Source: Amyelois transitella (Eukaryota > Arthropoda > Insecta > Lepidoptera > Pyralidae). From it: a stretch of 64,000 nt of DNA. The notes under the pieces are model-generated. The model worked only from the letters and a program-made list of their open reading frames with translations, had not been told where the DNA came from and did no database searches. Location: positions 5,394,001 to 5,458,000 of the forward strand of contig NC_083520.1 of the NCBI RefSeq assembly GCF_032362555.1, given 5' to 3'. Shown piece after piece: positions 13,226 to 47,700 of this stretch. How positions within the stretch are numbered: the stretch's first letter is position 1; each line of letters opens with the position of its first letter. Position numbers and translations under genes: made by a program.

Positions 13226-14537
13226 CGTCCCCTTACTGCAAAAACCAATTAAAGTCACTTTTTGTCAAAACTGAGTTAAGTGCACCTTCATAATCTCCTT
13301 TTCAAGCTCTATACGCTGGTAAAACCCGTTTTTTGATATGACGCTTCATTCCTGATTTAGCTTTTCGCTAAGATATCTTACAATGTAATTTTGAAAATAA
13401 TGTACAGTAAAACAGTAATGTGTAGTGGTTAAATAAAATGTTTAAATAAAATTTACAGAAAAGATCAATAATCGTATTTTCAATGGTTTTGGCATGTTAA
13501 ATTTTGACAAAAAAAAATTATTCAATTACTGCAAAAATATACTTAACAATACTAGCAAGCTTTTAGCAGTTACTTGTTAGATAAAATTCTCTATGTTACC
13601 TACTTACGAAATATTTAATAATCTGTTAGTCCTTTTTACTGATTCATATTTCCCTCGTAAATAAATATTATCTACAAGAAAAATATAATAAAGTAGTTTT
13701 GTTGGTTTTACTTGTAAGCTGTAAACTTTGATTTCATTCAGCCCGTCAGCAAAAACCGTGTAAGTCGCGTTTCAACCGTCGCTCTTACTGTGCGTCTGCG
13801 TTGAATTTCGTTAAATTTGCTGTTTTGTTTGCGTTAAACCTTGTATGTGGAGAAAGTAATAATACGAAAAAAGCGGGTAAGTAAAATCATTATGTAATTA
13901 ATTTTAGGTTAGATTTTTGTAAAAATGATTTTGTTACCTACTTAGTTGAAATTTGAAACGGAATGTATTATTATGATCTATATTTTGATTATATTACACC
14001 TAACTATAGCACAATATTATAATACGCATGTACTTTGCTGATGATATCTGACGATAAATAATTTTTCATCTACTAAGATAAATACCTACTTACGTGCGAC
14101 CTGGGGTGGCGGGAAGGCTTATTTTGTTTGTTTAATCATACTAATATTATAAAGCTGAAGAGATTGTTTCTTTGTTTGTTTGTTTGAACGCGCTAACCTC
14201 AGGAACTAATCCTATTACGGTGCACACATTTGCACAGCTAGTTAACAATATTTAACAACAGTTTTTATATCTACTAACATAAGAATGTGCATGTGATGAT
14301 GATCATTTATTTTTAGGTGACTATAATAATACCTACCCAGTCAGTGTTAATGCGAAAGAATCTAGCCCATCGGAGTTGACCGTAAGTGCTCGTATAAGTG
14401 CTTATTGCAAAAAATTACACATCTAGCTACCATTTGATATATGTTACTATGCTATTTATTTGCTAATTAAAGATATTTAAATGAATGTTTTTAGTTGTTA
14501 GGTTTTGAAAGTGAATTTAAATGTGTACATCATTTTT

Positions 14538-14612
14538 AGGGTTCCGTACCCAAAGGGTAAAACGGGACCGTATTACTAAGCCTCCGCTGTCCGTCTGTCT
14601 GTCTATCCATCT
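14538..14612 (+). repeat. LINE-type repeat tail
   Basis: 'GGGTTCCGTACCCAAAGGGT' with 'AAAACGGGACC', followed by 'CCGCTGTCCGTCTGTCTGTC', is a common dispersed repeat end in moth genomes. It is cut off at the palindrome that begins at 14613. Confidence 0.6.
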
Positions 14613-14654
14613 GGGGTGACAGGAGAGATGATGCATCATCTCCCCTGTCACCCC
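14613..14654. repeat. Near-perfect 42-bp palindrome
   Basis: Two 21-base arms, GGGGTGACAGG... and its reverse complement with one mismatch, meet with no spacer at 14633/14634 (ATG|CAT). It sits exactly where a LINE-type repeat stops. Confidence 0.85.
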
Positions 14655-14789
14655 CTTCCTACTTTACCTCTCCTTTTAGGCTTTCGACGACTCCTAGTCT
14701 TTCCATATCTAAATCGGTTCATTCAATTTATGTATTGAATAGAATATTTGCAAGTTCTGAAAGTATTCTGGAAATCCGTAAGGTTAGCC

Positions 14790-16078
14790 CTAAGATAAAC
14801 TAGAACCAGAGAGCTGACTAGGATCAGAAGCCAGGATGGTAGCGTTGTGAGAGGAGAAGAATGTGTGTTAAGATATGGAAGGAGTATTTTGAAAGTTTAT
14901 TTAAAAAAAATGAAGGAAATATTAAAAATTTATGTTATAGCGAAGAAAAAGAGAATGAGATGGAAGGCGAAATTGAAATGTTCGAAATTGTGAAAGCATT
15001 TAAGAGTATGAAAGCTGGTAAGGCTGCTGGGTATGATAGTGTCGGTCGAGATGCTAAAAAATTGTCCTGCGACAAGGCGTATTAGCTAGTCAGTTGTACT
15101 GCCTTTTCAATTTGTGTTGGAGAAGCGGCCGAGGACCTATTTATGGATAGTTGTTTGATAGATTTGAATGAGTCTGAAAGTGGATTAAGGATGAAAGAGT
15201 TACTCGTCAAATGTCTGCTCTATACCGACGATCAGGTTATACTGGCGTCATCAGCGGAAAAGTTACAGGAGATGGTAAACTGTATGCATGAAGCTTTGAA
15301 AGAGAAAAGAATGAAAGTAACGTAAGTAAAACTAAAACACTGTTTTTTTGAAATGGAGAAAGAAATGACAGCATGTAATATTTTGATTGGAGGAGAAAAA
15401 GTTGAGCAAGTGAAAGAGTTTGTATATCTAGGATCAAAGTTTACATCAGATGGAAAGTGTGATAGTGATATTGAAAGGAGAGTGAACGCGGGGAACATGG
15501 TGAATGGAGCTTTGCATGCCTTTATGAGCAGTCAGAAACTATCCAAAAAGGCTCGACTGGCTGTGCACAAGTGCGTGTTGGTCCCGACATTGATGTATGG
15601 GAGTGAAAGTTAGGTATGGCAAAAGAAGCACGAAAGCAGAATAAATGCAGTGGAAATGAGAGCGTTAAGATGTATGATCGGTGTGAAATTGAGTGACCGG
15701 ATAAGGAACAGCGTGATAAGTGAATGTTGTGATATGAAGATGAGAGATGTAGTTACAGGAATAGAAAAGGGTATGTTAAGATGGTTTGGTCATGTGGAGA
15801 GGATGAATGAAAGCAGGTTGACTAAGCAGATATACAAGGAGAGTGTGGAGGGTAAGGTCGGAGTGGGAAGACCTAGACGAACGTATCTTGATCAAATTAA
15901 GGACGTCCTGGTAAAGGTTCAGGTCAAGAGTACCCGAAACCGCCGAGCTTGCATGAAGAGAGTTATGAATGTGGATGAAGCGAAGGAAGTGTGCAGAGAT
16001 CGTGGCAAGTGGAAAGGGATAGTCGCTGCTTACCCCTCCGGGAAAGAGGCGTGATTTTATGTATGTATGCATGTATGT
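14790..16078 (+). mobile_element. RTE-type LINE fragment, internally deleted and mutated
   Basis: Pieces of a reverse-transcriptase frame are visible: 14861-15085, 15143-15325 with the catalytic box as LYTDDQVIL, and 15353-16054 (VKEFVYLGSKFTSDGK, then MYGSES followed by a TAG stop where the copy at 46503 has Trp). The 3' end is 'CCCTCCGGGAAAGAGGCGTG' plus TATG repeats. Such LINEs copy themselves by target-primed reverse transcription; this one is broken by frameshifts and stops. It lies inside transposon 1. Confidence 0.85.
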
Positions 16079-17040
16079 ATTTGCAAGTTAGCAGAGAACA
16101 ACTACTTATGCACATTTTATATTTCAGATGATAACAGTAGAGGATCTACAGACTTAAACGAATCAGCCACTAAAACTGCAGACTTTTTGTATGACGTTTT
16201 TATTTGATTTTGGTTATGTTAAATTAATAAAGTATTTTTATTTTAACAACATTGATGATGATGATTGTACTATTTGGTATTGTTTTTATACATAATAAAG
16301 TATTAAGGCCGTCAAAATTGTGTTTTAAACTTATTTGTAACATTTTAGCGAATTATGGGATATTTTAATATTAAATTAAAAGCAACTAACCCAATATTAA
16401 GTAATATTTAGGGCACTTAAGTAGTTAAGTTAAAAAATCTTTACAGTAAAAACCATTTATTTGCACCACCTCTCGCCCTAATTCCTTAATTTATTCTAGT
16501 TTTTCGAGGATTTGCTTTTATTGTACTAATTACCTTTAAAGCTTAATAAATAAGTATTAAAAATACATGAACAGATTCTTGAAAGGTTACAATCTTAATA
16601 GTGATTTGACAGTGCAAACCTTTAAACGTCAATTTCTCAAAACTTAATTTCATGCACTTAGTTGGTTTTTGCAGTAAGGGGACGATATGAGTCTACTAGA
16701 ATCAAGAACCGCAATGTCCATAAAAACCAAAAACGTGTTATCTATGGTACATGAAACTCTAGATTTAAAAAAATATTTTCGTCCATTCAAAATCTAGCTA
16801 AAACCACAATGTCCAATAGAAATAAACGTTTAAAAATAAATGTTTGCAACAATATCAGCATTGTCCGCTCGCGTATGTATCCGAACTAGCATTGTCCATT
16901 ACAGCCAATCACGATCGACCGCGGTCCGTAAAACAGTATGGCGGATTTTGGTGTCTATCGTAAGCAGTGCGCTCGGCTAATTTAATTTTTTAAGTTCAAA
17001 GACTGATTTGAGAGTTATAAAATATCGTTGAATATAAACT

Positions 17041-19502
17041 ATGGAATGTTATCCACAAGTGGTTGACAATAAAAATGCAAGGAAACGAAGAGTTGATAGT
17101 GCAAATTGGAAGAAAAACAAGGAAAAAATTTACCGGTAAGTATAGTTGAACTACGTAGCTTTGATACTTGAATTTACATGTATTTAAAAAAAATATGTCG
17201 ATGATGAAGTACGTATATAAATGTGTTTGCCAACCCATCTTCAAAGCGTGTACCCCCAAATGCAGTACTTTTAACTTACTTACGTACTTTACGTTACTTA
17301 CACACTTTGACTCTTATCAACATTTCTACACACTTTTTATTTTAAATTGGGTACCTTCTTGGCTATTTTTTTATTAGTCCGTCTTTAGATCATCAAAAAA
17401 TATGAGACAAGTATTTTTTCTTTTGTCATTTAGACAATAATATATAAAGATATAGCCTGATAAAGTTTCATAAAACGACCGAAAAAAAAATATGCTCAAA
17501 GTTTAATAGGTCAATTTTTGCTTTTTTTTTCCTAGCCTGTTGATGTTGGTTCCCACTGTTGGGCAACGGCCTCCCCTATTCTTTCACTCGTCTCTATCTA
17601 TCTCTCTCAATTTTTGTTTAAATGACAAAAAAATACGTATGCCAAATTTTTTGGATATTATTCGTCGGTTATAATAGTTTGGTGATATTTTATGATATCA
17701 AACCTGTTAAATGTGTTTTAATAAAAAGAGACTAAATATCTACAGTCCTCAAACTTTGTTGTTCCAGGTACACTGCAAAGGACTTACCTGTTAAACCGTC
17801 ATGTTTACATAAAGACAAAAAGCTGCAATGCTCTGATATTAGTATGAATGATCTGCAGTCTTTTCATGGATCGTTTTATGCTGTAACGGATAAAGTTAAA
17901 CAAGATTTGTTCATACTCAAACATGTAGTAGCTGTACAAACAAAACGCCGTCGTCCTAGGTCTAATTCTATGCATTATAAACCTAGAGAAATGCAAAGGA
18001 TGTACAGGATTTATTGTAGATCTCAAAAAAAGATGGTGTTCGTTTGCCAAAAAGCTTTTTTGCAAACATTGCATATAAAAAGATATCGGATAGAAAATGT
18101 GATAAAGAATTATTACTTAAAAGGAGAAGTCCCGAAAGAAAAACGTGGTGGTGACCATAAGTCACATAAGTACATCGAAAAAAAACGAAGTGTTATTTCA
18201 TTTATAAAATCATTTAAATGTTCTGAGGCGCATTATTGTAGAGGCAATACTAAGCGTATGTATTTGCCGTCAGAATTATCGATAAATAAAATGGCTAAAA
18301 TGTACAATGCTCAATCAGCTGATAATCTGAAAGTTAAAGCCTTATATTTCCGTAACATATTTAATACTTGTTTTAATTTGGGATTTGGCACACCACGTGT
18401 TGATGCATGTTCTACATGCTTGCAACTGTCCGAGAAAATTAAAGTGGCGAATGAGACTGATAAAAATCAGTTAATGGTGCAAAAAACTGTGCACAAGAGA
18501 CGTGCCAAAGCATTTTTTAATATGTTAAAGGCAGAAGATCCTTCAATTAAAATAATATCTTTCGATTGCCAGAAAAATATGGTTTTACCAAAAATTCCCG
18601 ACCAAAGTACATACTATTCGAGACAGCTATATTTTTTTAATTTCACAATTGTAGAAGGCAATTCGAAATCACCATTAACAAGTAAAAATGTTTTTAGTTA
18701 CTGCTGGACCGAAGATGAATTTGCAAAAGATGCAAATTTAATTTCATCTGCTGTTTATCATCAATTATCTAACACTGTTTTTACACCAGAATGTAAAACC
18801 CTTCGGATTATGGCCGACGGTTGCGGCGGACAAAATAAGAACTCAATTTTAATAGCAATGCTTTCAAAATGGTTAATTCATAATGCACCAATGCATATAA
18901 AGATTGTAGAAATTGTGTTCCCTGTAGTGGGACACTCGTTTCTTCCTGCTGACCGAGTCTTTGCTCGTATTGAAAAACAACTGCGAAAAATGGAAAATAT
19001 ATTAAATCCGAATGAATATATAGACGTCATAAGTCAACATGCAACGGTTATCAATGTAGGAAGAACATGTCAAATCTTTGACTGGAAAAGCACGGTAAAA
19101 GATATATTTAAAAATATTGGAACCTGGCATGTGCCTTTTTCTAAATGTAAAAGATTTTATTTAAAGAGGGCCAGCAGATCTAGTGATATGGTTGGTCTTC
19201 GAGGAGAACTACACTACAGACAAGACTTAGGCCAATATAAAAGTGTTTGCAAAAAAAATAAAACATCTGCAATGATTGCACCACGTATGATTACAAAGGG
19301 AGTTGATGTAAAACCCTTAAAACTTAGGGATGTCAGCAAATTACTTAAGACTCATTATGGTGACGATTGGCGAAGCTTCCCTAATTTGGTATATTTTGCT
19401 AATGTGGTACCACAAGAAATTTTGGTAAATGAAGGTGACGATGATAACCCTGAAGAGTCAATGTGCGAACTTCAAGAAGAGCTGCCGTCATTAATTATTT
19501 AG
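17041..19502 (+). CDS. Transposase-like protein of element 2 (609 aa, DDD/E core)
   Basis: Two exons: 17041-17135 and 17768-19502, with donor CCG|GTAAGT and acceptor TTCCAG. The first adds MECYPQVVDNKNARKRRVDS and a basic stretch to the long open exon. Residues about 44-125 hold scattered Cys (C44, C53, C115, C125), and C246/C249 form a CxxC (VDACSTC). The core shows ISFDCQKN (D298), IMADGCGGQNKN (D382) and SFLPADRVFARIEK (D427, E434), the order expected of an RNase H-like DDD/E transposase. Many insect genomes contain uncharacterised proteins of this layout. The frame is complete, without stops, so it may be recent; AATAAA follows at 19522. It likely cuts and inserts the element in the nucleus by recognising the terminal and subterminal repeats. 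Catalysis is inferred from the motif pattern only. Confidence 0.85.
17525..17612 (+). repeat. Dispersed repeat fragment in the transposase intron
   Basis: 'GTTGGGCAACGGCCTCCCCT' with 'TTCACTCGTCTCTATCTATC' is a moth-type interspersed repeat tail, inserted in the intron of the element 2 gene. Confidence 0.5.
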
Positions 19503-19559
19503 TTTTAGTACTTATGCTCAAAATAAACATTAACCTAAGCGTAGTATTGTTTGTTTGTT

Positions 19560-19975
19560 TTTCGTGTGTGTAAGTGGCCAACATGGTTTGGGTGGTTTTT
19601 TCAAGCCGCCTAAAGGCATCTGACATGGCTTAACGACTGCCATCTATGATGACAGCCGGGACCAACGCGTAGTATTCAGATGCATAGGACGAATATTGTA
19701 CAAAATCCCATTCAAACTTCAACCCCCCCTACAACCCCACCCACTTATTTTTTGGAATTTAAAGTAGCCTATGTCCATCTCTGTGGTACAATACAACCTA
19801 TTATAAAATTCATCGAAATCGGTTCAGCCGTTCAGCTGTGAAAAAGGAACAAACATACATACATACACACTTTCACAATTATAATATTAGTAATCGAAAT
19901 CGGTTCAGCCGTTTAGCCGTGAAAAAGGAACATACATACATACATATACACTTTGGCATTAATATTAGTAAGGAT
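19560..19975 (+). repeat. Dispersed repeat tail with duplicated segment
   Basis: Between the transposase stop and the right end lies a composite: 'GACAGCCGGGACCAACGCGT', then 'CATCGAAATCGGTTCAGCCG' present twice (about 19811 and 19896), each followed by CATACATACA repeats. It is typical of LINE-derived 3' sequence and was probably inserted after the element formed. Confidence 0.55.
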
Positions 19976-20584
19976 ACAGTGATAAAGTTGGTAAATTGGA
20001 CATAATAGTTTTGTAGCTTTATGTATGCAAACTACTCAAGGATCAAAACTTTTTAGCAGATTACATTGAGAATAGGTATGTTTCAAAATTAGCAATGTCC
20101 AACAAGCGTATGAAACAGAGACAGCAAAATCCACTTGTATGTCTCAAAACCCGCAATGTCCCAACTGTTTTAATTAATTTAACTGTAGTAACATTACAAA
20201 GTCCATAATTTTAGATATAATGTAACATCCAGGAGATATCTGCAGCCATTCACAAAAATTACAGTTACCTATAACAAGCGAATAATTTATAATCAAATTA
20301 TTATTATTTGTGAAAATACTCTAAAAGGGACATTGCTGTTTTTGATTCTAGTAGACTCATATTATCCTCGCTCAAGCATTAGTATTCGATACATTAGTAT
20401 GTATACAATATCTTTACTTTAAAGAAATTGACGCCCAAAACTTAAATGTCAAAGTCATCGACTGAGCATCTGACATTTTTTTATTTGACAAATGTCAACA
20501 CTAAAAATGAAAGAAAACAAGAAAAACCAAGATAAAATTTTCCGTTGATTTGTTTTTTTTAGTAAAAAGCCATCTAAAGTAAGC

Positions 20585-21878
20585 ATGGCTCACACACTTC
20601 TCCCCTATTCGAAATCAGTACTTACAAAAGCAAAATGTTACATTACACAGTCCTCAAATGTGAAAAGTTTCGTCAGGAATCTGATGTCAAAACAGCTGGT
20701 TTACAATGAATTTGGAGATCCACTACGAGTTGTGAAGTTGAGAGAGACCAGTGTACCACCTTTGGGCAGTCAGGATGTGCTCGTGAGGATGCTGGCTGCC
20801 CCGGTTAATCCTGCTGATATTAATACCATACAAGGTACAAAAACTTAAAAAACTTAGTTTACCTTTGCAGATTAATAGACACAATACTAGCTTGATAACG
20901 TTAACTTGTGCAAAGAGAATTCAAGAATTAAATGTGAAAAAAGGTATTTATTTTTATTCCCTTATTTTTGTCTATTATTGAGTAAGTTGTTTTATTATAA
21001 GTTGTAACTTTATTGTTTTTGTTTTAGGAAAGTATCCAGTAAAAGTAAGTTTACCAAGTATCCCTGGTAATGAAGGTGTAGGGATCGTTGAAGAAGTTGG
21101 AAAGGATGTGGAACGTATTACCTGTGGAAATAAAGTTATAGTTACCAAACCTCTGCAGGGTACTTGGAGGAACTATGGGGTCTTCAATAAGAATGTGCTA
21201 AGAGTAGTCCCTGATGAGTTAGGGGTAGTTGAGGCAGCCACACTCACTGTGAACCCATGCACAGCTTACAGAATGCTTATGGATTTTATTGACATCCAAG
21301 ATAAACAAGTTGTTATTCAAAACGGAGCAAATGGAGCTTGTGGCCAAAATGTAATTCAGCTATGTAAAGCTTGGGGTGTCCAAAACATAAATATTGTTAG
21401 ATGCAGACCTGATATAGACCAACTTAAAGCATATTTAACAACTTTGGGTGCTACACTAGTTCTGACTGAAGAGGAATTGCGGAACACATCAATTTTCAAG
21501 GACAAGACATTCCAAAAGCCCAAGTTAGCACTAAATTGTGTTGGTGGAAAAAATGCATTGGAAATAGTAAGACATATGGACCATTCTGGAAAAATGGTCA
21601 CCTATGGTGGGATGTCTCGTGACCCTGTGACAATTCCCACTTCAGCATTTATTTTTAAAAATATATCTTTCCATGGGTTCTGGATGACTGCTTGGAATGA
21701 GAAGGCCTCTCAAGTGGAGAAAGATGCAATGGTCCTTGATATTGTTAAACTGATGTGTGAAAATCGTTTGAAGGGACCAGTACATAAAATGGTGAAGTTA
21801 GAAGAATATGAAGGGGCATTGGGAAATGCTCTCTCCAGGCAGGGATTTACAGGATGCAAATACTTATTACAATTCTAA
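20585..21878 (+). CDS. MECR: Mitochondrial trans-2-enoyl-CoA/ACP reductase
   Basis: Exons 20585-20834 and 21028-21878 encode 366 residues, close to the human length (about 373). The protein reduces trans-2-enoyl thioesters with NADPH, the last step of mitochondrial fatty acid synthesis, which feeds lipoate and respiratory chain assembly. Residues 1-35 are basic and Ser/Thr-rich, as in a mitochondrial import signal. NPADINTIQGKY is the family signature, with catalytic Tyr86 (Tyr79 of the yeast enzymes); SIPGNEGVG follows. The cofactor site is near residues 180-200 (NGANGACGQNVIQLCKAWG, NIVRCRP). AATAAA is at 21952. The gene starts only about 225 bases after the right end of transposon 2. Confidence 0.95.
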
Positions 21879-22182
21879 ATTCTTGATATATATCATATTA
21901 AATATTTAATTATAACTTTGTAAGATTATGATTATGTGTATTTTGTCACTAAATAAAAGTATAAGTCAGACACTTTTTTATTTTACTGCCTTATTATAAA
22001 TTTAGAATCTTTATTTTATTAGTTTTAATCACAAAAAACACATCAATAAAATCTTTCTTCTTTTGGTTTGAAAAAATGAAGTTATCAATTTGGATGGAAT
22101 TGAACCAGTGGATAGACTAGACTATCATGAATAACCTTTTTTAATCAATGGGAGTAATATAAAGCTCCAGTCAAAAAATACA

Positions 22183-22230
22183 CACATATAATCACATCTT
22201 TATCCCTTGCGAGGTATACAGAGCCAAAAA
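22183..22230 (+). repeat. SINE-like repeat, head fragment
   Basis: 'ATCCCTTGCGAGGTATACAG' marks a short piece of the repeat between the two MECR-type exons. Confidence 0.6.
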
Positions 22231-22319
22231 CTTAAAAACAAATTTAATGAAGATATTGCAATAGAATTTACATTTATTCTTTTCAGGCCTCTAATTAGTC
22301 TTTTCTTTTTTGCTTCCAG

Positions 22320-23167
22320 GTAAAAATATTTCCTTGCCAGCGTTACCTAGTGTTGGAGGCGATGAAGGTATTGGAGAAGTTGTTGAAATTGGTGGGCTAG
22401 TTTGTAGAGTTGTCCCTGGCCAACGTGTGGTTCTCAGCTCCAGATTACTTGGTTCCTGGTGCAACTATGGTATTTATCATGAGAGAGATATTCATGTAGT
22501 TTCTCCAAACCTGTCTCTTCCAGAAGCAGCCATGCTTACTTCAGCTCCTAGTGCAGCATACAGACTAATAAAAGATTTTATTAGTGTAAAACCTGGAGAA
22601 ACAATCACACAAAATGCAGCCAATAGCCCATGTGGCCAATGTGTTATACAGTTGTGTAAAGAATGGGGGATAAATACTTTTAACATTGTGCCAAACAGAT
22701 GTAACTATAATATAATAGATCACCTTTATCGCATTGGAGCTACTACCGTCGTCACATTAGATGAAGCTGAACAGTTATCGAGTTTTAATACATCCCTAAC
22801 CCGACCTGTCTTAGCACTAAATTGTTTGGGTGGAAGATATGAGGATGTGATGCTCAAACTTCTTGAACGTAATGGCACAATTATTTATTATGGAGATGCT
22901 TACTGTTTGCCTTTGGTGAAGCAATTTCTACGCTACGATGTAACATTTACTAAATTTCACATAAGGGATTGGGATTCGAAAGCAACGCCTGTTGAAAAAG
23001 ATATCATGTTTAAAGAAATAATACAACTCATGGTGATAGGAAAGTTTATTGCACCGTTACACCAACCGCTAGAATTGAAAAATTATGTGTACGCATTAAA
23101 AGGCACAACTGCTTTTGAATCAGATGCATCTTACAGTTATATTTTTGATTTGACTTTGCCTCCCTAA
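22320..23167 (+). CDS. Second MECR-type large exon, catalytic Tyr replaced by Asn
   Basis: An intact frame of 282 complete codons begins right after a good acceptor (TGCTTCCAG) and is homologous to the second exon of MECR. It has no first exon of its own: no ATG or NPADIN segment is visible between 21879 and 22319. It accepts the single G left by MECR exon 1 (20834) in phase, which would give a 365-residue protein. It is therefore either an alternative last exon of MECR or a duplicate that lost its start. It keeps SVGGDEGIG and an altered cofactor loop (NAANSPCGQCVIQLCKEWG), but GKY has become GKN: Tyr86 is Asn. In yeast Etr1 the Tyr79-to-Asn change is reported to abolish activity, so this product is probably not a normal reductase, though the open frame suggests selection. 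Confidence 0.75.
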
Positions 23168-23385
23168 TCACACGCAGAAGGTACCTAATTTGTTTTTTTA
23201 ATTGAATTGAATTGAACGCATATTCTGTAAAATGTCATTGTCTTTTTGACAGTGACAAAGAATTGTTTACGATTCACGATTCTATTCTAGTGTTTTGGTT
23301 TCTGGACATGATTTTACAGGAATTTATATTATATAAAACGTAACTACATATTTACTACAAACCTATCTGTCTTCAGTCTGAAATT

Positions 23386-26300
23386 ATGGATAAATCTCTA
23401 GAACCCTACGAGTTTATACCTGTTGATACAGAAGGTGAAACCGGTCAATTTTTTGTTGTCCAAGAAGATGGCACATACCTTAGTAAGTACCTTTAAAAAT
23501 CATCTGAAACAATACATAAGAAAAATACAATTGGGATGCGATCTAAACTCAAGGATGAGGGATGTCCATACGTTTTATTTAAATTTATTAGAAAAACCGA
23601 CAAGCCATCGTTCATTTTCTTTAAAAATTAATTTTGCATTACAATTTTACAAGAAAGTAGATATATAGGCCTAAACCTAATATAGACCGTCATACTATTA
23701 GTGTAATTATCTTTTAAATTATTGAGTAGATCTGAAGATAACCACCTAAATACATATAAACTTACAAAGTTTTATTCAATTCTTTAAACCCTTCATTGAT
23801 TATAATTTATTTCAGTCAACAGACAAGTCCAATTTGTGACTGAGGTCCAAGATGTGAAAACTGTGCTAGATGAAGGGCAATCTTGTACAGTTTATGATGT
23901 TTCGGAGCAGCCATTTTATGTTGATGTGGATAACCCTCCAGAGTTGATGTCAGTTTCTGGTATGTGTGTCACTGCTTATATTCATAATCCAACTGCTCAA
24001 ATACAAGATATTATCTTCCTCATCTTTTAATATTCGCAGTTTCACACTTTTCCATAGTGTTTCACGGCCTGGGTCCATTAACTGTCAAGATATTATGTTT
24101 AGTATTTATTGCTTTGACCCTCTCTTCCATAATTTTATGTAATATGCTTTATGTACTTACCAAAGTAAGCAAATGAGTTTCAACCCTCCTTGGGAATAAT
24201 TTATTTGCTTATAATGTCAATGATTTATATATATTAAATAATTTTCTTTGGCATATTCTGTAGAGCAAATGACTCATTAATCACTTCTATATCTCTTGCG
24301 AGGTAGATAGAGCCATCAGCCTTGAAAAACTAAAAGGCCACATTCAGCAGTCAAATGACTTGATGGAGGTATTAAGAAAAAAAAGTAAAACAATAACAAT
24401 TCAAATAATCAAATTTTAACATATATGATATGTGTTTTGCTATTATGTATAAAAATTGTCTAAAGCTTGTTAGTTATTATGTTAAAAAAATAGATTAACA
24501 TAATCCAATATTATCTTTCAGATCAATTTGTCTTACCAAATCCACCCAGTAACCTTTATGCCAACAGTTATCTTCTTCAGACTAGCACTTCTTCTGACCA
24601 GGTACCTACTGACTATGTACGTGAATTTTTTGATAAAGTAATATAATGTGAAAGTCTGTCTGTTATTTATTCATCGCTAAACCTTTAGAGGTTTATTATT
24701 GGTCTAGACCAATATTAAGAAAACTTTGTTACAGTTTTTTAGTTATTAATCTGAGGTCAGACAGTATGCTTTTTTGGGAATGCCCATAGTTTGAATTTTA
24801 GTTTAACACGTGCAGAGCAACAAGAAAACTTATGTGATTCAAATTTATTTTACCATTGAATGTTTACAGATAGTCTTTTAATCAAAAAAAGGATGATATA
24901 CTTATTAAATATTTTAAATTACAGGTGGAGGACATACCAGAAGTACAATACAAACCCTTGAATGCATCAATAGCTCTAGATTTGGAAGCCAATTTTAGTA
25001 AACCAGTCACCAACTGCACTGAGGTATGCTATTTAGCTATTAGCCTTTTGAATATACATGTAATCACGTCCAAAACCTGGGAAAGTCATCACAAGCCATC
25101 ACATACAGGCATATAAGTTTAATGATTTCCTGATCATAAAATATAACAATACATAGTTTTAACAATTGATTTCTTGTTCATGTGTGATTCATCAGACCCC
25201 TGAGTTGACAATGAGACAAATGTTTACTTTTTTTTTAGATTACATTAACTGATGAACAGTGTCACAAGTTGGAACAAAAAGGATGGCTTTTACTTGATTT
25301 AAACGACAAAGTTTTTATCCTGGACCACACAGGCGGGTTACGTGACATCACATCGAATGATAGTAAGGGATTTTATAGTTACATTTTATAAGTTTGTGTG
25401 AAGCATGATATACAATTTCGGTATTAGATAGGCGATTGGCCATAAGACCTCATCACCCTTCTAACGCTTTTCCCAAATTTACTTAGGAATATACTAACCA
25501 GGTTACGCAAAACTTTTCAAAATTCAAAATATTATTAAGTGCGGGAAACCAAGATTGTATTAGATATGCCATTTGCATGCATGAAATCAGAATAACATAA
25601 GAGCATACATATTTTATTTTCTATATGTCTTACGGACCCTGTGAAGCCAATTGCTGAGGATGCAATTGAATATAGAAATACGCTGAGTCAGGAAGAACTA
25701 ATAGTGAAATGTACAAAAAAAATAAATTTATTCATTTAAAAACTATCCGTATCCAAAATTGTATAAAAGATATTGTTAATTCAAACTAAACTTCAAGGAA
25801 TGCTTTTAATAATTTCAGAATTGATACAAAAATTAAGAAATGACGATACTGATGTCAATTTGGACATAAAACCGCAGTGAGTAAATAATTCTCTTTTTTT
25901 GCTCATAATTATTTTGGTAGTGGAACGCAGGTAATTCGCGTCCGGGTGTTTAAATTATACGGTAGTTTCGGCTGTATGTTGCAATGTACATCTGAAACTA
26001 CTAATCTGTCAGTCACGCGGTCACTCAAGAACTGATTTTAATAATGTATATGATATTCATGTACTCACTTCACCATTTCAAAGATGATAATCTGAATATT
26101 TTTTGTTGTTATAGGTATATTAAAATTGAAAATAATTCGATTCTTCCCGTCACAGAGAATTTGGACTCACGACCTAATGACGAATTCAATATTGACAGTG
26201 ATTCTGTACAGAATGATGTAAATTTTGGTCATTTGCCTTTAGTTGTTAATGATTCAAACAAAGGTAAGTAACTATATACATTTTTTTTGCTTCACGCACT

Positions 26301-34470: not shown

Positions 34471-34881
34471 CAACGGTACCGACGCGTTTTCTTGATAATC
34501 GTTTAAACTATTTGTTATGGTTCACATATAAAAATAAACACTCTTGATACGAGGTTTTGTTGAAAAATACTTAAATAAGATATTAACCCTAACTTACATT
34601 AAAACTTTTCGATATATTTCTGATAAGTTGGTTTTTATTACGTGAAACAACTTAACTTCGAAAATACAATGTTATAATAAGGTTTAAATAAAGGTTATAA
34701 TGTACGGACCTATTCTGTGAAAGTAATTTTTTAAGTTCATACCTAACTCCGTATGCCCATAATTTCTATGACAATGTCATAATCCAATATTTATTGGCAT
34801 GATACAAGGAACAAATTAAAACGCACAGCTTTTTATCAAAATACATTTTTTTATATTTTTTGTATTTTTGGTTCAGTAAAA

Positions 34882-37305
34882 ATGGCAGTGTTTGATGTGT
34901 TTGATCCGTTACAAAATATTACCCCTAAATTTACTGAAGAGCAACTAGAAGTTATTATCGAGTGGTTTGATAGTAATGCCAAACCTCTCCTTGTGATAAA
35001 TGATGGAGAACCAATAAATGTAATAAGCATTGAACAAATAATAGATTTTTTGAAACTAAAGAAGTAGAGTATTGTTTTTACATATTATATATTATTTTAT
35101 AGTGTTTGTTAACATAAGTATATCTATTTTGTCAAAATCCATTTATAACTTCTGTATTACACGTTGAGGGCAAATGTAATGAAATATGTACCTATCTGTC
35201 TACGATTGCTTAGATAAAATATTCTTAAAAAGACCTGTATATCACATGCACGTAAAATGTACATCAGGTTGACTTAATGCCACAAGGCATTCTTTACCAG
35301 TCGAACCTTTGGACTTAAGTGAGATGGATGTACGGGTGCATATTATAAAATAATATCGCAACTACATAATTTTTATTTCCAGATTTCATAGAAGATCATT
35401 TCATTATCCAACTTATGGTGAAATAATGACTGAGGCGGATAATCTTAAAGCTGGACAACTAAGAATAGTCACAAAAGAACAATTTATATACATGTTAAAC
35501 CAATGGGTTCTCGAAACCACTTTGAAGCACGAACTTATGTTAGCTATTAAGGTATGTATATAACCATCGCTCAAAATATTAATTTTTAACCGACTTCAAA
35601 AAGGATTCAATTTGGTCGTATTTTTTTTATGTATGTAACCGCATATCTCCGGCATTTATAGTTCGATTTGAAAAAATCTTTTTGGATTCAATTGAGTAGT
35701 ATTTCCGATTGGTTCAATAAAATGAATTAAGTTCTGGTCATACATGTGGAAGATATTCCAGGGAGCATCTCAAAAATCAACACAGTAGGTAACCTCTGAC
35801 TTTTATGTATTTACGGCATATCTCCGGCATTTATATCAGATATTTTTTTGCATTCAAAAAAGGTCAGAGTGTCCGTGCGGTGCCATAGAAATTTGGTTAA
35901 GATCTGGTTATTAATGTGGAAGGTTTTCTAGGGAACTCTTCAAAAATAAACAGAACGAGCACTGCAATTAAGTAAATACGTAGATAATGGTGCATATGGC
36001 ATCTCATAAGGGAAAAAGTGATCATTTTACGCATTTATTTATTTAGCGTGTATAAAGCTAATTTGAAAAGAGCTAATAGATAGAGAGCAGATGTTAGGCA
36101 CTAATGACTTAAATGTACCTACCGACACTAAAAGGTTTGATACCTTTTAGTGTGAGTAAATATGTAAAAGAGTTTTTACAAAAAAAAATTAAGAAATTAA
36201 TACTTACATAAAAAAAATCATTAAAAATTGTTTTTTAAGTTTATTTTAATTAATTTTTATTTTTTTTATGTCTACCATTACATACAAAAAATGCGTGAAT
36301 AAAAGATATTTTTATTTCTTAAAAAAATGAAGTTACGCAATGAACTTTATTGTTTACAAATCAAATTCATTCTAAACTAAGTACTCCGCTTGCTTTCCTT
36401 CGTCGTAAATAAGTACAGCTTACTGGCTCATAACGCATTTTTTTCATTGTCAACGATACTACATAGTTTATGTTTTTAAAGTGTCACTATTACTTTCTGC
36501 AGATCTTTGATACAGAAAAACGTGACTTCTTGGACATAGAAGAAATTCAGTCTATAGTTACAAGTTATGGGGATGTATTCAATGACGACGAAGTAAGAGA
36601 AATGTTACGGGATGCCGATGTAAGAGGGGATGGAAATGTTGTCTACGAGGAATTTATCGATAGCATATTCAGCGTAGCACCTCAGTTAAATAATATTATG
36701 GTATGTTGAAATAATCTTTGTAATTAACCCATTCTTTGACCATCATACTTATTCTAATGTTTGCATTATGTAGGCACTTAATAGAAAAGAAGACACGAGA
36801 TTCTGTTTATCTCATAGTACGCCAAGGAAGGGACTTGGGCTAAGTAATATTTATAAGCGAAAAACACTCAGTCACTTACTTACTGATCACGATATTTTGA
36901 AAACTACTTTGCTCAGAATGTTGAAATTAGTAAAGATTTTTGGGAATTCCCACAGGAACGGATTATAAGGTAATTTTTACGCGTTTGGAGCCGCGGGCGT
37001 TCTCTAGTTAAATTTTCTTTTGCACGCAAAGACTAATTTCTGCTTTGATCACTGGTAACGCTGATGCATATGTCTTTCCTTATTCCTTTTGACGTTACTC
37101 TACTTAATAAATGCCAGAAAGAACAATTAAATACTAAGTGTTTTTTTTATGCTCACATTTGCAGATTGATTATTTATATGAAAATCCAGATGAGGACCCA
37201 TCCGTTCCACCAGAGCCAGTTGAAGAAGAACCACCACCACCACCGCCTGCACCTCCGCCTCCGCCTCCGCCACCACCACCTAAAGATAAAAAGAAGAAAA
37301 AATGA
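34882..37305 (+). CDS. EF-hand protein resembling DRC8/EFCAB2
   Basis: Exons 34882-35063, 35383-35551, 36503-36700 and 37165-37305 give 229 residues. The donor of exon 1 (AA|GTAGAG) is weak, but skipping it would end the frame at once. Residues about 118-172 form a pair of EF-hand-like helices: IFDTEKRDFLDIEEIQ, then DADVRGDGNVVYEEF, whose loop has Asp, Asp and Gly but not a full canonical set, so calcium binding is doubtful for the first. The layout resembles calmodulin-like subunit 8 of the nexin-dynein regulatory complex (DRC8/EFCAB2), a ciliary and sperm-flagellar motility regulator; that identity is an inference. The C-terminus is unusual: acidic, then runs of 6 and 10 Pro broken by Ala, and a final KDKKKKK. 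AATAAA is at 37433. In moths such a gene would be expected in testis. Confidence 0.75.
35225..35348 (-). repeat. LINE 3' tail, reversed
   Basis: The minus strand carries 'AATGCCTTGTGGCATTAAGT', related to the plus-strand copy at 27130-27292. It is intronic. Confidence 0.5.
36125..36153. repeat. Perfect 12-bp hairpin
   Basis: ACACTAAAAGGT and ACCTTTTAGTGT around a 5-base loop, in an intron of the EF-hand gene. Confidence 0.85.
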
Positions 37306-38714
37306 AAACCGTACTTTATACTTACATAGTGATGTACTTATGTCTAAAAATACATTTCATTTTCAATTATGTTGTTATTGTGACGTCAAAAAATTGTCCA
37401 TGTGAAATTATTGTATGACGTTATTTTAATGAAATAAAAATTATTTACAGATAAGTTATTTTATTATACAACCTGAGAGACAAAACTAAAAAATTTAAAT
37501 AATAAAGTTGCTTGGAAAATATCTCTTTCTCTGCGATATGGTTGAGAGAATTATGTACCTAAATTTTAAGCTTTTAGTCTATGATGGCCTTTTGTAATAT
37601 AATAAAACTAGCGACCCTCTCTGGCTTCGCACGAGTAGCATTAAAGATAGGTATAAACCTTCCTTAGAAAACCCTATTCCCAACATTTCGAACAGGAATA
37701 AAGTCCGTCTACTACTCTTAAGAGATTAGCGCATATAAATATACAAAACTATACAGCAAAACGTGGCCTTTCAGTCCTTTAAAGACCCATCCGTCCATCA
37801 TTGTTGGCTCTGACCACCCCGGAAAGAAAATAGACGTGTCGATATGTATCTACACTCACAGAGAAAAAATGAAACTGTTCTGCTTTTTTCAAGATTTTAA
37901 CCGTAGGTACACAGTAGAAGGGAGTGCAAATATTACAAAATTCTTTAATATAGAAGATATGGGTTTAGAAAAAAACTATCAAGTATTTTTTCTAATACAG
38001 TCCTATACATAATGAAAGAAGAATGTTGTCGGTGTGTGACTAGTCTCGGCGAGCTTTGACCTGCGCTTGTGATATCTATAATATCTCTCGGCGTACCTGG
38101 ATAAAATAATAAAGGCTAGCTCTAATAACACAAGTATCCCATATTTAACACAAGTCTTGAACTTATTTTGGAGTTAGCTCTGTCTGTGGAATTTGTCCCT
38201 TAAATAGATAAATATTTAACAAGATTTTGTATGCATATTTGTACAGTAGCGTCACAACTTGTTTCTGTGACAGCTTTGCTTGCCAATAACTTACATCTTA
38301 TTTATCTCTGGCTGGATGGTCTCTGGCACGCCTCTGCCTCGGACAGCCACCGATCGCTCGATGGCACGCTACGCTGCTCCGTTTAATTACACACGTTCAA
38401 TCCAGTCTGTGCGAGTCGGTTAGACCTAGGTCGGATGAAGTCGACGGCTCGCTCGACCGACGGGCCCGTACCGTAGGTTTTGTCTCTGGTCCCTATAAAT
38501 ATTATTATCTGTGGTCACTATGATGGATGACATGTCATTCATTCATGTCGTGAAATTTTTAATGCAAAATATTTGTAATAATTTTGCACTGGCTGACTGT
38601 TTTTGTTAAATATGTCCAAATAAGTATATTAATGTAGGCTAACTTTGTTTACACAGTTTTACCCACCATTTATTGTTATTTCAATATCATAACTGTTACT
38701 GTTTAATCGGAGTT
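37306..38714. other. Intergenic region before FAF2
   Basis: Starts with the EF-hand gene's 3' untranslated region. A reversed SINE-like fragment lies at about 37775-37855. The stretch 38300-38480 is more GC-rich and may hold the FAF2 promoter. No other gene was seen. Confidence 0.45.
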
Positions 38715-41700
38715 ATGGATCTTGAAGACAATGCAATGGGTTTAACCCATGAACAAACGGACAAAATACTACAGTTTCAAGATTTAACGGGTATAGAAGA
38801 CATGTCCATATGTAGGGACGTATTACAGAGACACCAATGGGATTTAGAGGTAACGTTTAAAGCTTTTGAAGTCTTGTCGTATTTAGGTCAATATTTACCG
38901 ATGTTTCTTGTTTCTTTCAGGTTGCAATACAGGAACAGCTAAATATTAGGGAAGGCCGACCATCTGTTTTCGCGACAGAGGCACGGGCGCCTCCAGTGGT
39001 ACATGATCACATAGCACAGCAAGTTTTCACTGATGATGCACCTGAAGGCCCTGGGGGCGTGCGAGGATTGTTTCGATATGTTGTCAATTTAGTGGTGTCC
39101 ATGTGCTACAATACTATAACATCTGTTTTAAATTTGCTGTTGAGTTTTGTACGTAATGATGACAGAAGATGTAAGTATTTGGGATACATGTATTCATATT
39201 TAATTATTAAATTAAATGTCTTATCTCTAGCTGTGAGCTTTGTGGCAGTATTATTTTAATAATGAGAGCTGAGCTGAGGTGAGTAAAATAGATGAATAGA
39301 ATTTTTTTATGTTAGCTTCTAGTTATACTTAATTTGCCATTATTTCTTATCAAAATAACAAAGTGTAAAAACATTTTACAGTTAAATTTGCATTTTTTTG
39401 TCTTAGTAATAGTCAAATATTTTAAGATACTAGGTTAATACACTTTAAGTAATGAAAAATCTTTGCAGTGGTGACGGATCCCTTAGGTGACGTGATGGGT
39501 TTCATCAACAGCTACACAGCACGTTATAACCCTCACCCCGTGTTCTATCAGGGCACATATGCTCAAGCACTCAATGATGCCAAAAATGAGCTGCGATTCC
39601 TCATTGTGTATTTACACTCGGATGCAGCACAAGAAACACAAAACTTCTGCAGGTGAGCTCAGAAAAGAATTGTGCTTTACATACATATCTCTTGGTCTCG
39701 TCTATATCCCTTGTGGGTAGACAGAGCCAACAGTCTTGAAAAGACTGATTGGCCACATTCAACTATTTGGCTTAATGATAGAATTGAGATTCAAATAGTG
39801 ACAGGCTGCTAGCCCATCACCTAAAAAAAGAATCCCAAGTTGATAAGCCTATCCATTAGTTGCCTATGACATTCATGGGAAAGGGATGGAGTGGTCCTAT
39901 TCTTTTTTGTGTTGGTGCTGGGAACCACATGGCATTGTGATTTGTTTAAAATAATACTCAAATTCAATCGCCAAATTTTGTTTATGTTGTAATTAAATCA
40001 TTGACTGAAAGCAAATGCTCACAACAACAAGCGAAGACTCAATAAAGGTATAAATAATTATTGAAAAGTTTACTTATACTGTCTGGGTAAACTAATATTG
40101 CATAATTTTAATTGCTAATATTGAAAGCATACTGACTACCTACTTTATTACAGGTCCACACTTGCCGACCCAGAAGTAATACAGTACATAAACACACATG
40201 CCCTCTTCTGGGGGTGTTCAATAGACAATGCAGAAGGTTGGAGAGTGGCGCAGTCAGTGGGGGGGCGACGGTACCCCCTGCTGTGTGTGGTATGTGTTAG
40301 AGATCACCGTATGACTGTGGTGGCTCGCAGTGAAGGACCTTGCTCGGCAGTCCAATTGCTACAAAGGCTGCGACGTGTGGTGTCTGATAATGAAGCCCAT
40401 TTGTCTGCAGCAAGGGCTGCAAGGTAAATATTAAATATCATAGTCATTTTAAGGCAGGAATAGCTAATATTCTCATTTTTTTTTAAATTGAACTTTGTAT
40501 GTTAGTGATAAGTCTTCAAATCGAAATAATTAATAATTGACTTACCTATAGACTCATAAAAGGTATCTTAAACATACATATAATCACGTCTATGTCCCTT
40601 GCGGGGTAGACAGAGCCAACAGTCCTGAGCGGACTGATAGGCCACATTCAGCTATTTGGCTTTAAGATAGAATTGAGATATGAAAAAATGAGTATCTTAA
40701 ACACTAATATCAAATAAAATCAAAACTATTATTCATCACGATTATTGTAAGTACACAAGTCAAAATTTTGATAATCAAATAAAAAAAAAATAGTTTTTCC
40801 CAATCTTTGGCTGTCTTATTAAAAAATGTTGCAATATTTTTAAAATCATTTCACTATTTATATTATCTGTTTTATGGCTTTAGTATTTCCTTGGAAATCT
40901 ACGAAAATATGGACAACCTGTATCTTCATACATTTTGTGTCTAGTCTTATTCTATTATTGTTCAACTTGACATAATTTTTTAGAGTGGAACGTGAAGTGA
41001 CTGCTCGCCTTCGAGCCGCTCAAGATGAAGCGTATGCGGAGTCACTAGCCGCCGACCAGGAGAAAGAAAGGCGACGCGCAGCCGACCGCGCCGCACGGGA
41101 AGAAAGGGAGAATGAGGATTTGAGGCGGCGGCAGCAGCAGGAGAGGCAGAAACAAGAGGTAAAAGTTCAAATAAGTATCTGCCAACTTTTTTATCATTAT
41201 AACTATCTATCTCTATTAAGTTATCTATACTTTTAGTATAAAAAAATTTTTAGTCAATGCAACCTTTCATAGTTCATTATCGAACATATGATAGCACAGA
41301 TTTCTGAGTTATCTATGCTTTTTATGTCATTTAATTACTTTTGTCAAGTAACTCGTACACACGAATTCCTACATAAAATTTTTTTTAGAAATATTTATTT
41401 CTGATTTCTCATATATAAAAACACACAAGTAGTCTTTGCTGTAGTTTCTTTGAAAAATAATTGTCACGTGTCAGATGCAAACTCTTTTTCATTTGTGTGG
41501 TATTGTGTGTAGCTGGTGGAGGCTCGCGCGGCGATGGCGGTGCGGCTGCCGCCGGAGCCGGCGCCGGGCCGCGGCACCGTGGCGCTGCTCATCCGGCTGC
41601 CGGGCGGCGAGCGCCTCACCAGGCGGTTCACTCTGTGTCACACCACACAGGTATTTCATTTAGAAAAATCTTCTAATTCTGCTTTATTGAAAGGCAGGGG

Positions 41701-44700
41701 AGAATCGATTTTCGAAAAGGTTGAGAAATGTCTCCCAGCAATGGAAAGCGGTTACACGGTACTCGAATTGAACCCACACCGAGGCTTTTCCTTTCTTGTT
41801 TCATTTTAGTCTATATCGCACGTTAAGAATCAAACCGTCACTATACGAAATTATGCAAATATCGACTATTAACGCCATCTAGTAGCGCGCGGTAAGAACA
41901 GTGTAACGCAGAAACTCCCATGTTTATATCATAATCCGTTCGATAGATGTCATTAGTGTCGATATGTCATTGGTGGGAGATCACGAGGCCGTTGACAGCA
42001 ACATCGTCATTTTTTCATTAGAGACATGGCCGCCGTGATGTTGAGGTCAATTCTGTATTGAACAGTGACATTTTTTGTTTACCTACGCTTTTCCTGAAAT
42101 TATAAGGTAAGTTTGACTGGGTTTATACATAAAAAACGTTTTTAAACAAAAAGTGACAGTTTTCTTTTTATTTTAGTTTGTATGTTAGATCATACTTTTA
42201 AAGAATAGTGTATTTAAATGTAAAGTGTCAGTTGTCCCGTTATTTATGTTGGATATTTGGAATATTTTTTAAAGGTATACTGTCATTAAACAATAAGTGA
42301 CAGTCTTCACATATTTTTGGTTGGATATTTGGAATATTGTTTGAAGGTATACTGTCATTAAACAATAAATGACAGTATTCGCATAATTATGTTCTTAAGT
42401 AAGATAACAATTTTAAATAATAATTGTAGTATTACAAATAGTGACAGTGTTTTCCATAAATTCAGAATGTATTATTTAAAACAATTTTAGATCTTTTATG
42501 TTTCTTTCAGTTTAAAGTCAGTATTGCTGCAATTTCGAGATGATCACCTTATTTATTAATCTGCCCCTATCCGAAAAGAAACGTTTTTGTCTTAATGTTC
42601 CAACTTTCTTGTTACTATACTAATAATAATTATTAAGAGGAATGATTTCATTGTTTGTTTGAATTTAATAGGCTACGAAAATACAACATAAATTTTAAAA
42701 AATCTTTTGCCGTTTGATAGGCCCTTATCCCTGAGTGACATAGGCTATGTAAGTAGTTTATAATAATTATGTATTAACGAATGCTGTATTTTTTATACTA
42801 AACGACAATTTTTGGTTAAAAGACATGACAATGTTCAGTGGTTTAAACGTGAAAGACGGACAAACAAACAAACAAACGTACTTTCACATTTATAATACCT
42901 ATTAGTATAGATGATAACAATCTTTTATTGACCGTGCAACCTAACTTTGCCAATATTATCTTACAGTATCTTCATCATGCCTCCTATCAACCCAAGGACT
43001 CGTAAATTTAGAGGAATTATTAAAGATATTAATTCCAAAATTGAAGAATCTCCAGAAATAAACGAAACTACGAGTATTAGAGTTGCACAAGATCCAAGCC
43101 CAAGTTCCAACATTACAGGCGTTCAACGTAAACAATACTTTAGAAACAGAAATTCTTCAAGTTCTTCCTGTAGCAGCCGTCAGTCTACTCGAGATTTTTC
43201 GCCTGCTTCCGATGATGATAAGGAGTACAAACCCAGTTCTCTAGATAATTCGTCATCTCAAGAATCTGACAATGAAACTCGTACACAAAACATTAAATTA
43301 CCAAAAAAAGTATGTCAACAACAAAATTTAGTCAGTGGGTCTCAATCACAATTCAGTTCGTACAATTCACTTACACAAAAAGAAACACTATCGTCGGGAA
43401 CTGCACCCGGATCATCTAGTTCATCTTCATCATCTAGTTCATCCACTTCTAGTACGTCTAGTAGCTCTTCTAACAGTTCTTCAGATTCTGAACAAAATTC
43501 AGTTGCACCATCGAAGCGGAAATGTGTTACAATGAACCAAGAAACAGATATTGAAATAATAATAAGCAAATCAACCGAATACTTGTCATCTTTACAACAA
43601 ATAGCATTACAATATGATTCAAATAGTTCGTCTGATATTAATGAAAATGTGATTAAAAAATGTACAACGTCTGAAAGGCCCATAACCGAAGTAGATAATT
43701 CAAACAATTACAAACATAATTTAGACTCATATTATGGAGAAACCCAAATACTCTCATTTCATGATAATCAAATTAACGCAACAGTTAATGGTAATTCTGA
43801 AGTAGCACATGACCCAGCAAATTTTATTTATGTTTCATTACCCCTAAAGCAAAATAATCCTACGTTTTATAATCCTCTATCTTTAAAATCAATTGTATTA
43901 GAGCAAATTAAAAATATTCAAACTGCAGCTATTAGTGATTTGACACCTGATAAAGTTTGCCAGAATGACTCTAATGGACAAACACGAAAAAGAAAGCGCG
44001 GCAGTAAAAAGGCTCTTGCAAAAACTTTACGAAATATGGGTTTAAAGTATACATCTTCGTCTACCAAACATAAAGTAATAACAGAAAGAAAAATAGGTGT
44101 TCCTTGTAATAATAATTGCCGATTAAAGTGTTCCAATAACTTTTCCGAAGAAGAACGTAAGGAAATTTTTTGTAACTATTGGAGAATGGGGTCACTTACA
44201 CAACAAAGATACTTTATATCTAAACATATGAGTGAGATTAAACCGAAGTATCAATATAAAAAAATATCTAACAATAGAAAACCCAAACACTCATTTTACT
44301 TAACAATAAATAACCAAAAAAAGAAGGTATGCAAAATATTTTTCAAAAGAACTTTAGGTATCAATGACAGGCCAATTCGGACTGTTATAGAAAAATTTAA
44401 TTCAACGGGTATTATTGAACCTGAACTACGTGGAAAACACAAAAATCATGGAACCAAAGTATCTGCAGAGTTATTGGCTACAGTTAAAAGACATATTGAT
44501 AGTATACCCAGAATTGAGAGCCATTATTTGCGTCAACAAACAAGTAGAGAATACATAGAGGGAGGGAAAACATTAACCGATTTATACAGAGATTATAAAA
44601 AAGATTGTGAAAAGAATGGATCTGAATATGTCAAAATTAATATTTATAGAAAAGTGTTTAAAGAAGACTTTAATATAAGTTTTTTTACACCAAAGAAAGA

Positions 44701-47700
44701 CCGTTGCGAAGATTGTGTTGCATATGAAAACGCATTACAACCAGATAAAGAAAAACTGGAAGAAAAGTATATATCACACTTAAAAGAGAAAGAATTAAGC
44801 AGGGCAGAGAAGTTACGAGACAAGGAATTTATCAGTGAGAATAATATTGTAGCATGTTATGATATGCAAGCCATGTTACAGGTTCCTAGGGGAGATGTGT
44901 CTTCTTTCTATTACAAATCCAGATTAAATTGCATGAATTTTACAATTTGCGAACTAAAAGCAGATAATACTGACTGCTTTTTTTGGAATGAGGTTGAAGG
45001 GCAAAAGGGCGCAAATGAAATAGGTACATGCATTTTCAAATTCTTAGAGAAAAAGTCCGCGTCTTTGTCAGGAAAAGTAGATATAATATTTTACTCTGAT
45101 AACGCATATGGCCAAAATAAAAACCAATTCGTATTTTCCACATACATACACGCAGTTAAGAACTTACCAAATATTAATTCAATAATTCATAAGTTTTTGA
45201 TCAAAGGTCATACGCAAAATGAGGGTGACTCTGTCCATTCCACAATAGAGCGGCAGATAAAAAGAATGTTACGTGCTGGACCTATTTACGTCCCGGATCA
45301 GTACATAAATGCCATACGAGAGGCAAAGAAAAAAGGGAACAAATATAATGTAGTAGAAATGTCTCACAAGGAATTTTATGACATAAAAAAAATTCAAGAG
45401 TATAAATTGACTAAAAATACAGAAGGAGCGGTAGTTAAAGTAAGTGATATCAAGATTATAAAGATTGAAAAAGGGGATTCAAATAATAACGTAAGAGTAT
45501 ATTACAAGGAATCTTATTCGGAAGAAAATTACAAAGAAATAAAATTGATTAAAATACCTCGTGCTCGGCCTCAATTACTCCCTCTTTATACTTCAAAATT
45601 ACCATTGTCTGATAATAAAAAAAAGGATCTTAAGGATCTTATAAAAAAAAATGCTATATTGCCGTATTATGTATCATCTTTTTATAATCACATTCTATAA
45701 TTTTCAAGGGATAATAATAATAGGTGATTAAGAAATCCATCTCAAAATTGTCACTTTCTTATTTTGTACTAAGTAAGATTTTTTTACTATTTCTTTTTAT
45801 TTTGATTTTGATTTTGATTAGGTAAATAAAGTTTATAAAAAAAACTTAAATGAAAAAGTATTTGAAATAGGTATGATTTTTGTTTCATTTTCGAACTTAA
45901 TGATACCAAAACAAAAACCAATTCGTAATTAGTGAGGAGAGTTGTTTATTGATTTTGGTCAAATTATTGTCTGTCTGTGAGACATTTGTTTAGAATTTAA
46001 TTTTGTTATCTATTGTTTCAAATAATAGTAATATTGATAGTCTGATGATTACTGTGATTTTAGATAATAAGAACAATTTCAATAAGAATACTCTACAATT
46101 ACCTAAATGGAAATAAGATTAAGACTGAATGTAGCCATATAATTGGTAATAAAACATTGTTTTTTTATATAAAACGACTGATTTCATAATAAGTCGTGGT
46201 TTCATTTACCCAATTATATTATTTTGTTTATTTATCGTTATAAATATAGGAAGATAGTGTCATTTTAACGCATGTAATGTTTCAGCTCTAACTTAAGACA
46301 TTTTGAAAAGTGACACTTTTACATATTACGTGGAACAGTGACACTATATTTAAAAAAAAAAATAACAAATCCGTTTTAATAAATAGATTTAAATCCTGTA
46401 AGTGGTTAGCACAAAGTTTATCCTAATAATAATAATATGGACACAAAAGTAAGAAAATAAATAAGTAAATAAGTAAGTAAAACTAAAACACTGGTTTTTG
46501 AAATGGAGAAAGAAATGACAGCATGTAATATTTTGATTGGAGGAGAAAAAGTGGAGCAAGTGAAAGAGTTTGTATATCTAGGATCAAAGTTTACATCAGA
46601 TGGCAAGTATGATAGTGATATTGAAAGGAGAGTGAACGCGGGGAACATGGTGAATGGAGCTTTGCATGCCTTTATGAGCAGTCAGAAACTATCCAAAAAG
46701 GCTCGACTGGCTGTGCACAGGGGCGTGTTGGTCCCGACATTAATGTATGGGAGTGAAAGTTGGGTATGGCAAAAGAAGCATGAAAGCAGAATAAATGCAG
46801 TGGAAATGAGAGCGTTAAGGAGTATGATGGGTGTGAAATTGAGTGACAGGATAAGGAACAGCGTGACAAGGGAATGTTGTGATGTGAAAGAAGATGTAGT
46901 TACAGGAATAGAAAAGGGTATGTTAAGATGGTTCGGTCATGTGGAGAGGATGAATGAAAGCAGGTTGACTAAGCAGATATACAAGGAGAGTGTGGAGGGA
47001 AAGGTCGGAGTGGGAAGACCTAGACGAACGTATCTTGATCAAATTAAGGACGTCCTGGTAAAGGGTCAGGTCAAAAGTACCCGAAACCGCCGAGCTTGTA
47101 TGAAGAGAGTTATGAATGTGGACGAAGCGAAAGAAGTATGCAGAGATCGTGGCAAGTGGAAAGAGGTAGTCTCTGCCTACCCCTCCGGGAAAGAGGCGTG
47201 ATTTTATGTATGTATGTATGTATGTAAGTAAGAAAATTATAAACATAATAATAACATTTTGCAATGATTGTAAATTTTGGGACTTCAAATGAACTTTCTG
47301 AGGTTTTGATTTTTTTGCTTAGTGACGGTTTGATTCTGAACGTGCGATATATGTTAGTGTATTTACTAGTATATGTTAGTAGGTATATTAAGCATTTTAT
47401 AATATTATGAAAAGTATAAGCCTATTACTCTTTTTATCTGGATTTAGGTTTCGGCATCATCTATTATTTTTCATTCCCAAAAATTGTAGGGCGGCTTTTT
47501 ATATCGGCGCCAAAGTGTTTTTAATTACTTACCTGTCGTGTTTGCAGGATTTATATGACTTCGTGTTCAGCCACCCACAATCTCCGGAAGAGTTCGAGAT
47601 CACCACCAACTTCCCGAAGCGCGTGTTAACCCGCGGCCCCTACAATCTGAGCGAGGTGGGACTCAAAGACCGCGATGTACTGTTTGTCAACGATGTTAAT

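Follow-up and report, generated by a model that had tools for sequence, protein, structure and literature searches.

Putative Sola2-like DNA transposons with 4-bp target duplications, mostly ATAT, in the genome of Amyelois transitella

Three transposable elements, E1, E2 and E3, lie in a 64,000 bp stretch of the genome of the navel orangeworm Amyelois transitella (C16:5394001-5458000; here referred to as the window), and by description they are closest to Sola, a group of transposons reportedly founded by Bao et al. in 2009. Sola elements overall are described as having 4-bp target duplications and a DDD transposase, with inverted repeats that span 11-1124 bp and a size of 2-9 kb in most cases (PMC10741241), and the Sola2 elements of two dictyostelid amoebae (the DFa and PPa elements) as having 4-bp AWWT duplications, with ATAT, AAAT and ATTT listed, inverted repeats of 12-21 bp, an 888 aa transposase in DFa-2, and a carried Fanzor1 (PMC3627910). 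Other papers report Sola elements of moths in baculovirus DNA, with ATAT absent from their main text (PMC4735498, PMC6983493), and Sola2-derived miniature inverted-repeat transposable elements in a wasp (PMC7822920). Of the four papers that matched a search on Sola and Sola2 target duplications, only PMC3627910 mentions ATAT. An earlier note on this DNA knew of no published ATAT-specific lineage, but the amoeba elements with AWWT duplications, ATAT included, had already been published, and ATAT flanks by themselves do not define a new lineage.

From this comparison E1, E2 and E3 appear to represent new families within an already described type of element, one that is Sola2-like, and most likely belong to Sola2. 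They resemble the amoeba Sola2 elements in the 4-bp AT-rich duplication, in short inverted repeats (12-21 bp in the amoebae, 23-31 bp here) and in the large size of the transposase (907 aa in E3 against 888 aa in DFa-2), and differ from them in the insect host, in other terminal sequences, and in 5 of 29 targets that fall outside AWWT. Inverted repeats of 23, 31 and 27 bp and lengths of 3459, 3670 and 5530 bp (E1, E2 and E3 respectively) lie within the Sola ranges. The assignment to Sola2 draws on the target and the length of its duplication, on the size of the elements and on acidic residues, rather than on direct protein comparison. E2 and E3 are very probably DNA transposons of the cut-and-paste type, while E1 would be non-autonomous and mobilized by the same kind of transposase, with the group working in the manner of Sola2: a transposase with the Pfam domain DUF7869 would bind the terminal inverted repeats and excise the element, the element ends would be joined to the target with a 4-bp stagger at A-N-N-T, mostly ATAT, and gap repair would yield the 4-bp duplication.

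Three elements and their ATAT flanks

All six ends of the elements adjoin ATAT, with boundaries exactly where the earlier note had placed them. E1 (13226-16684, plus strand, 3459 bp) has perfect 23-bp inverted repeats (13226-13248 and 16662-16684) and contains a reverse-transcriptase fragment resembling a long interspersed nuclear element (LINE) and no DUF7869. E2 (16689-20358, plus strand, 3670 bp) is an autonomous-looking DUF7869 element with 31-bp inverted repeats differing at two positions (16689-16719 and 20328-20358); its transposase gene lies on the plus strand in two exons, 17041-17135 and 17768-19502, the second encoding DUF7869, which when joined at a putative splice donor and acceptor form an open frame of 609 codons. 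E3 (41817-47346, plus strand, 5530 bp) is also autonomous-looking, with 27-bp inverted repeats differing at one position (41817-41843 and 47320-47346) and a plus-strand open reading frame for a 907 aa transposase (42977-45700) with DUF7869 toward the C-terminus. The target duplications, which have no strand, are read from the flanks at 13222-13225 (left of E1), 20359-20362 (right of E2), 41813-41816 (left of E3) and 47347-47350 (right of E3), and at 16685-16688 a single ATAT serves E1 on its right and E2 on its left, so that six ends have five ATAT copies. For E3 only, a boundary moved by one base (giving TATA) fits as well as ATAT.

ATAT makes up 748 of the 63,997 4-mers in the window (1.17%). 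The window was scanned for 20-bp inverted-repeat pairs with at least 17 of 20 bases matching, and their flanking 4-mers were compared, alongside 12 Markov shuffles. Identical flanking 4-mers accompany 11 of the 539 placements found, and the 4-mer is ATAT in three of these 11, namely E1, E2 and E3; the 12 shuffles together gave one ATAT case. The earlier view that the terminal sequences are all unrelated needs correction, since E2 and E3 both carry AGAATCAA, in register with each other, at terminal positions 10-17 (P 0.0004 by shuffling, or 0.003 when shifts of up to 3 are permitted). By the same kind of shuffle test the E1 termini show no relation to those of E3 (P 0.16) or E2 (P 0.43). A further motif, GCAATGTCC, occurs four times in the window, in each case within 600 bp of the E2 ends, and these are candidate transposase sites.

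Target preference, empty sites and duplication length

The 327 Mb genome (33 contigs) was searched for further copies; in the E1 DNA search 40 of 5157 candidates were scored, and copy numbers are lower bounds. Fifteen E1 copies were read at both ends, and the 4-mers match in 14 of them (ATAT in 12, AAAT in one and TTCT in one); the other, L031, has ATAT on one side and ATCA on the other. The four complete E2 copies have ATAT twice and AATT twice, and the four complete E3 copies, including that of the window, have ATAT twice and ATGT twice; E3 is also present on contig C31. Four sister families, chosen for having several equal-score copies and open frames, were added by fetching eight of 120 DUF7869 matches besides the E2 and E3 copies, and their ends were placed by eye. 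Two copies were read of each: F725 (ATAT, ATTT), F697 (ATTT, ATAT), F603 (AAGT, ATAT) and F733 (ACAT in the one complete copy). The F697 rows are weaker, since its outer inverted repeat is perfect over no more than ~5 bp, followed inward by a common motif, and the boundary was chosen partly via the matching 4-mers. The count omits two E3 copies, L053 with a truncated right end and L054 without one, whose left sides read ATGT and ATAT, a second F733 copy (L061) with ATAT at the left and its right end not found in the stretch, and 13 of 21 matches to an E2 pattern, each with three mismatches, the reversed control pattern having given 16 matches.

Across the seven families the flanking 4-mers match in 29 of 30 complete copies, L031 being the sole unmatched one. 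The first base is A in 28 of the 29 and the last is T in all 29, with ANNT in 28 and AWWT in 24; ATAT accounts for 19 of the 29, and for 7 of 15 with E1 set aside. The target consensus is A-N-N-T, and the preference for ATAT is strong, not absolute. Strict ATAT specificity, as the earlier note had it, is not upheld: the E1-E3 families are also inserted at AAAT, TTCT, AATT and ATGT, and the sister families at ATTT, AAGT and ACAT. That note had reckoned varied 4-mers at other copies as evidence against its proposal, and such variety is present in part, in ten of the 29. Elements of the piggyBac/TTAA type likewise have an AT-rich palindromic 4-bp target and TTAA is the target of Sola3, but TTAA occurs at 0 of the 29 matched copies and the proteins here hit nothing in Pfam besides DUF7869 at E <= 1, so membership of the piggyBac/TTAA elements is rejected.

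Because ATAT is palindromic, ATAT copies do not distinguish a 4-bp duplication from a duplicated TA with a preferred outer A and T, as in Tc1/mariner elements, where the element would begin with T and prefer A-TA-T; every ATAT copy and every ATAT empty site fits both equally. The distinction is made by E1 copy L008, the only one of the 29 in which the first base is not A. It has TTCT on both sides, where a 2-bp duplication would give ATCT at the right, so the duplication is four bases long and a 2-bp TA is excluded. The targets AATT, AAAT, AAGT, ATGT, ATTT and ACAT also argue that the middle need not be TA, and with the proteins being DUF7869 we regard the TA explanation as very improbable. 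Tc1/mariner elements have in common with these an RNase-H-type catalytic domain, seen here in the predicted protein model, but membership of Tc1/mariner itself is rejected on the same 4-bp duplication and the DUF7869 protein.

Empty sites bear out the 4-bp target duplication that had been proposed. E3 copy L052, a 4740-bp element bordered left and right by ATAT, sits in a high-copy repeat, and its two flanks were joined with one ATAT into a query of 244 bases. All 40 scored paralogs (of 78 candidates) match the full 244 bases with no length change, and the six unoccupied paralogs that were read each have ATAT once, with one to four mismatches elsewhere; these sites are paralogous rather than the orthologous ones first suggested. 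The alternative that ATAT is part of the element termini, to which the uniform ATAT flanks of the window elements would lend themselves, is hardly credible given these single copies, the one ATAT common to E1 and E2, and the ten matched copies with another 4-mer.

Two E1 copies in other repeats give further junctions. At L030, in an older repeat, 19 paralog alignments span the junction with a single 4-mer and no duplicate (AGAT in 16, ACAT in two, another in one, and ATAT in none of the 19), the alignments mostly having gaps of a few bases some distance left of the junction. Four paralogs of L005 (G000:C32:8841583-8845082) were read out of ten matches, two of the ten being halves of the L005 locus itself; three are 97-98% identical and one 80%. 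Of the near-identical three, two read ATAT once at the site and the other has an extended AT stretch including ATAT; the 80% one has AAAT. The occupied left flank has an extra ATAC before ATAT, four bases absent from the near-identical empty paralogs, and our guess from this single case is that ATAC may be a footprint left when an element previously excised from that ATAT.

The DUF7869 protein and its affiliation

DUF7869 is the sole Pfam family with a match to the E2 and E3 proteins at E <= 1. The suggestion of one transposase class is thus borne out for these two elements, and not for E1, in which no trace of such a protein is seen; transposase remnants are absent from all 15 E1 copies. In an alignment of 95 sequences three D residues (266, 350 and 395) and two E residues (315 and 402) are invariant, and a predicted model of the protein has an RNase-H-like (transposase/integrase) fold. 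The DUF7869 protein is thus predicted, with the fold coming from modelling, to be an RNase-H-fold DDD/E transposase. Residues 340-907 of the E3 protein, the part searched, are 100% identical to LOC132903927 of A. transitella. A profile search of PDB sequences gave no matches, NCBIfam gave one weak irrelevant match for E2 and none for E3, and a viral fold library gave nothing at E <= 0.001; no relatives were confirmed in viral contigs (protein and alignment queries plus terminal-inverted-repeat patterns) or in prokaryote genome contigs.

The term DUF7869 was not found in the literature searched, and the domain is present in many uncharacterized insect proteins of the protein collection searched. 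A possible function is thereby suggested for this Pfam domain of unknown function, that of a transposase with a 4-bp A-N-N-T target. The genome search, in which each of 142 candidates was scored, gave 120 matches to DUF7869, against none for 14 control genomes. The matches form about a dozen equal-score groups, with many open frames of more than 550 codons, which suggests wide recent activity of DUF7869 elements in the A. transitella genome.

The DUF7869 elements might instead form a lineage outside Sola1, Sola2 and Sola3 that has the A-N-N-T preference by descent or by convergence. In favour of such a lineage, the likeness to Sola2 is one of description, and the term DUF7869 is absent from the literature searched. 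However, the duplication length is the same and the target nearly the same as in published Sola2 (PMC3627910), and the conserved acidic residues would fit a DDD transposase as described for Sola (PMC10741241), so we consider a separate lineage unlikely. An equally doubtful extension is that a DUF7869 lineage apart from the published Sola groups kept an A-N-N-T code with ATAT preferred while its termini diverged, that E2 remains active in this moth, and that excision leaves behind small footprints, the ATAC next to an E1 copy being one.

Recent movement, inserts and neighbouring genes

These elements have moved recently. Where the DNA aligns, the three other E2 copies show 99.95-100% identity with that of the window, one being shorter by 107 bp, and each of the four has an open two-exon frame; by this near-identity E2 is judged to be very young. 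With its four near-identical copies and open frames it is a good subject for studying the movement of a little-studied group. In ungapped columns the window E1 shares 96-99% identity with the remaining 14 copies of its family, and E1 probably inserted first at ATAT, with E2 entering its right-hand ATAT duplicate later. This order is likely rather than proven, because E1 copies L003, L004 and L005 are near-identical among themselves and so moved recently too.

Pieces of a single LINE-like reverse-transcriptase repeat are found within E1 (14756-16080) and within E3 as it stands in the window (46459-47225, plus strand), and the repeat has many further genomic copies. Nine other E1 copies match along the full length of the element, and these contain the E1 piece too. 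The E3 insert is present in the window copy only; the four others that reach that point (L050-L053) lack it, and their alignment is interrupted from element position 4642 to 5410.

Coding pieces on either side of E3 (41500-47710) resemble exons of one UBX/FAF-like gene, in which case E3 would sit in an intron. Two adjacent open reading frames at 20982-23167 have the appearance of tandem mitochondrial enoyl reductase-like genes.
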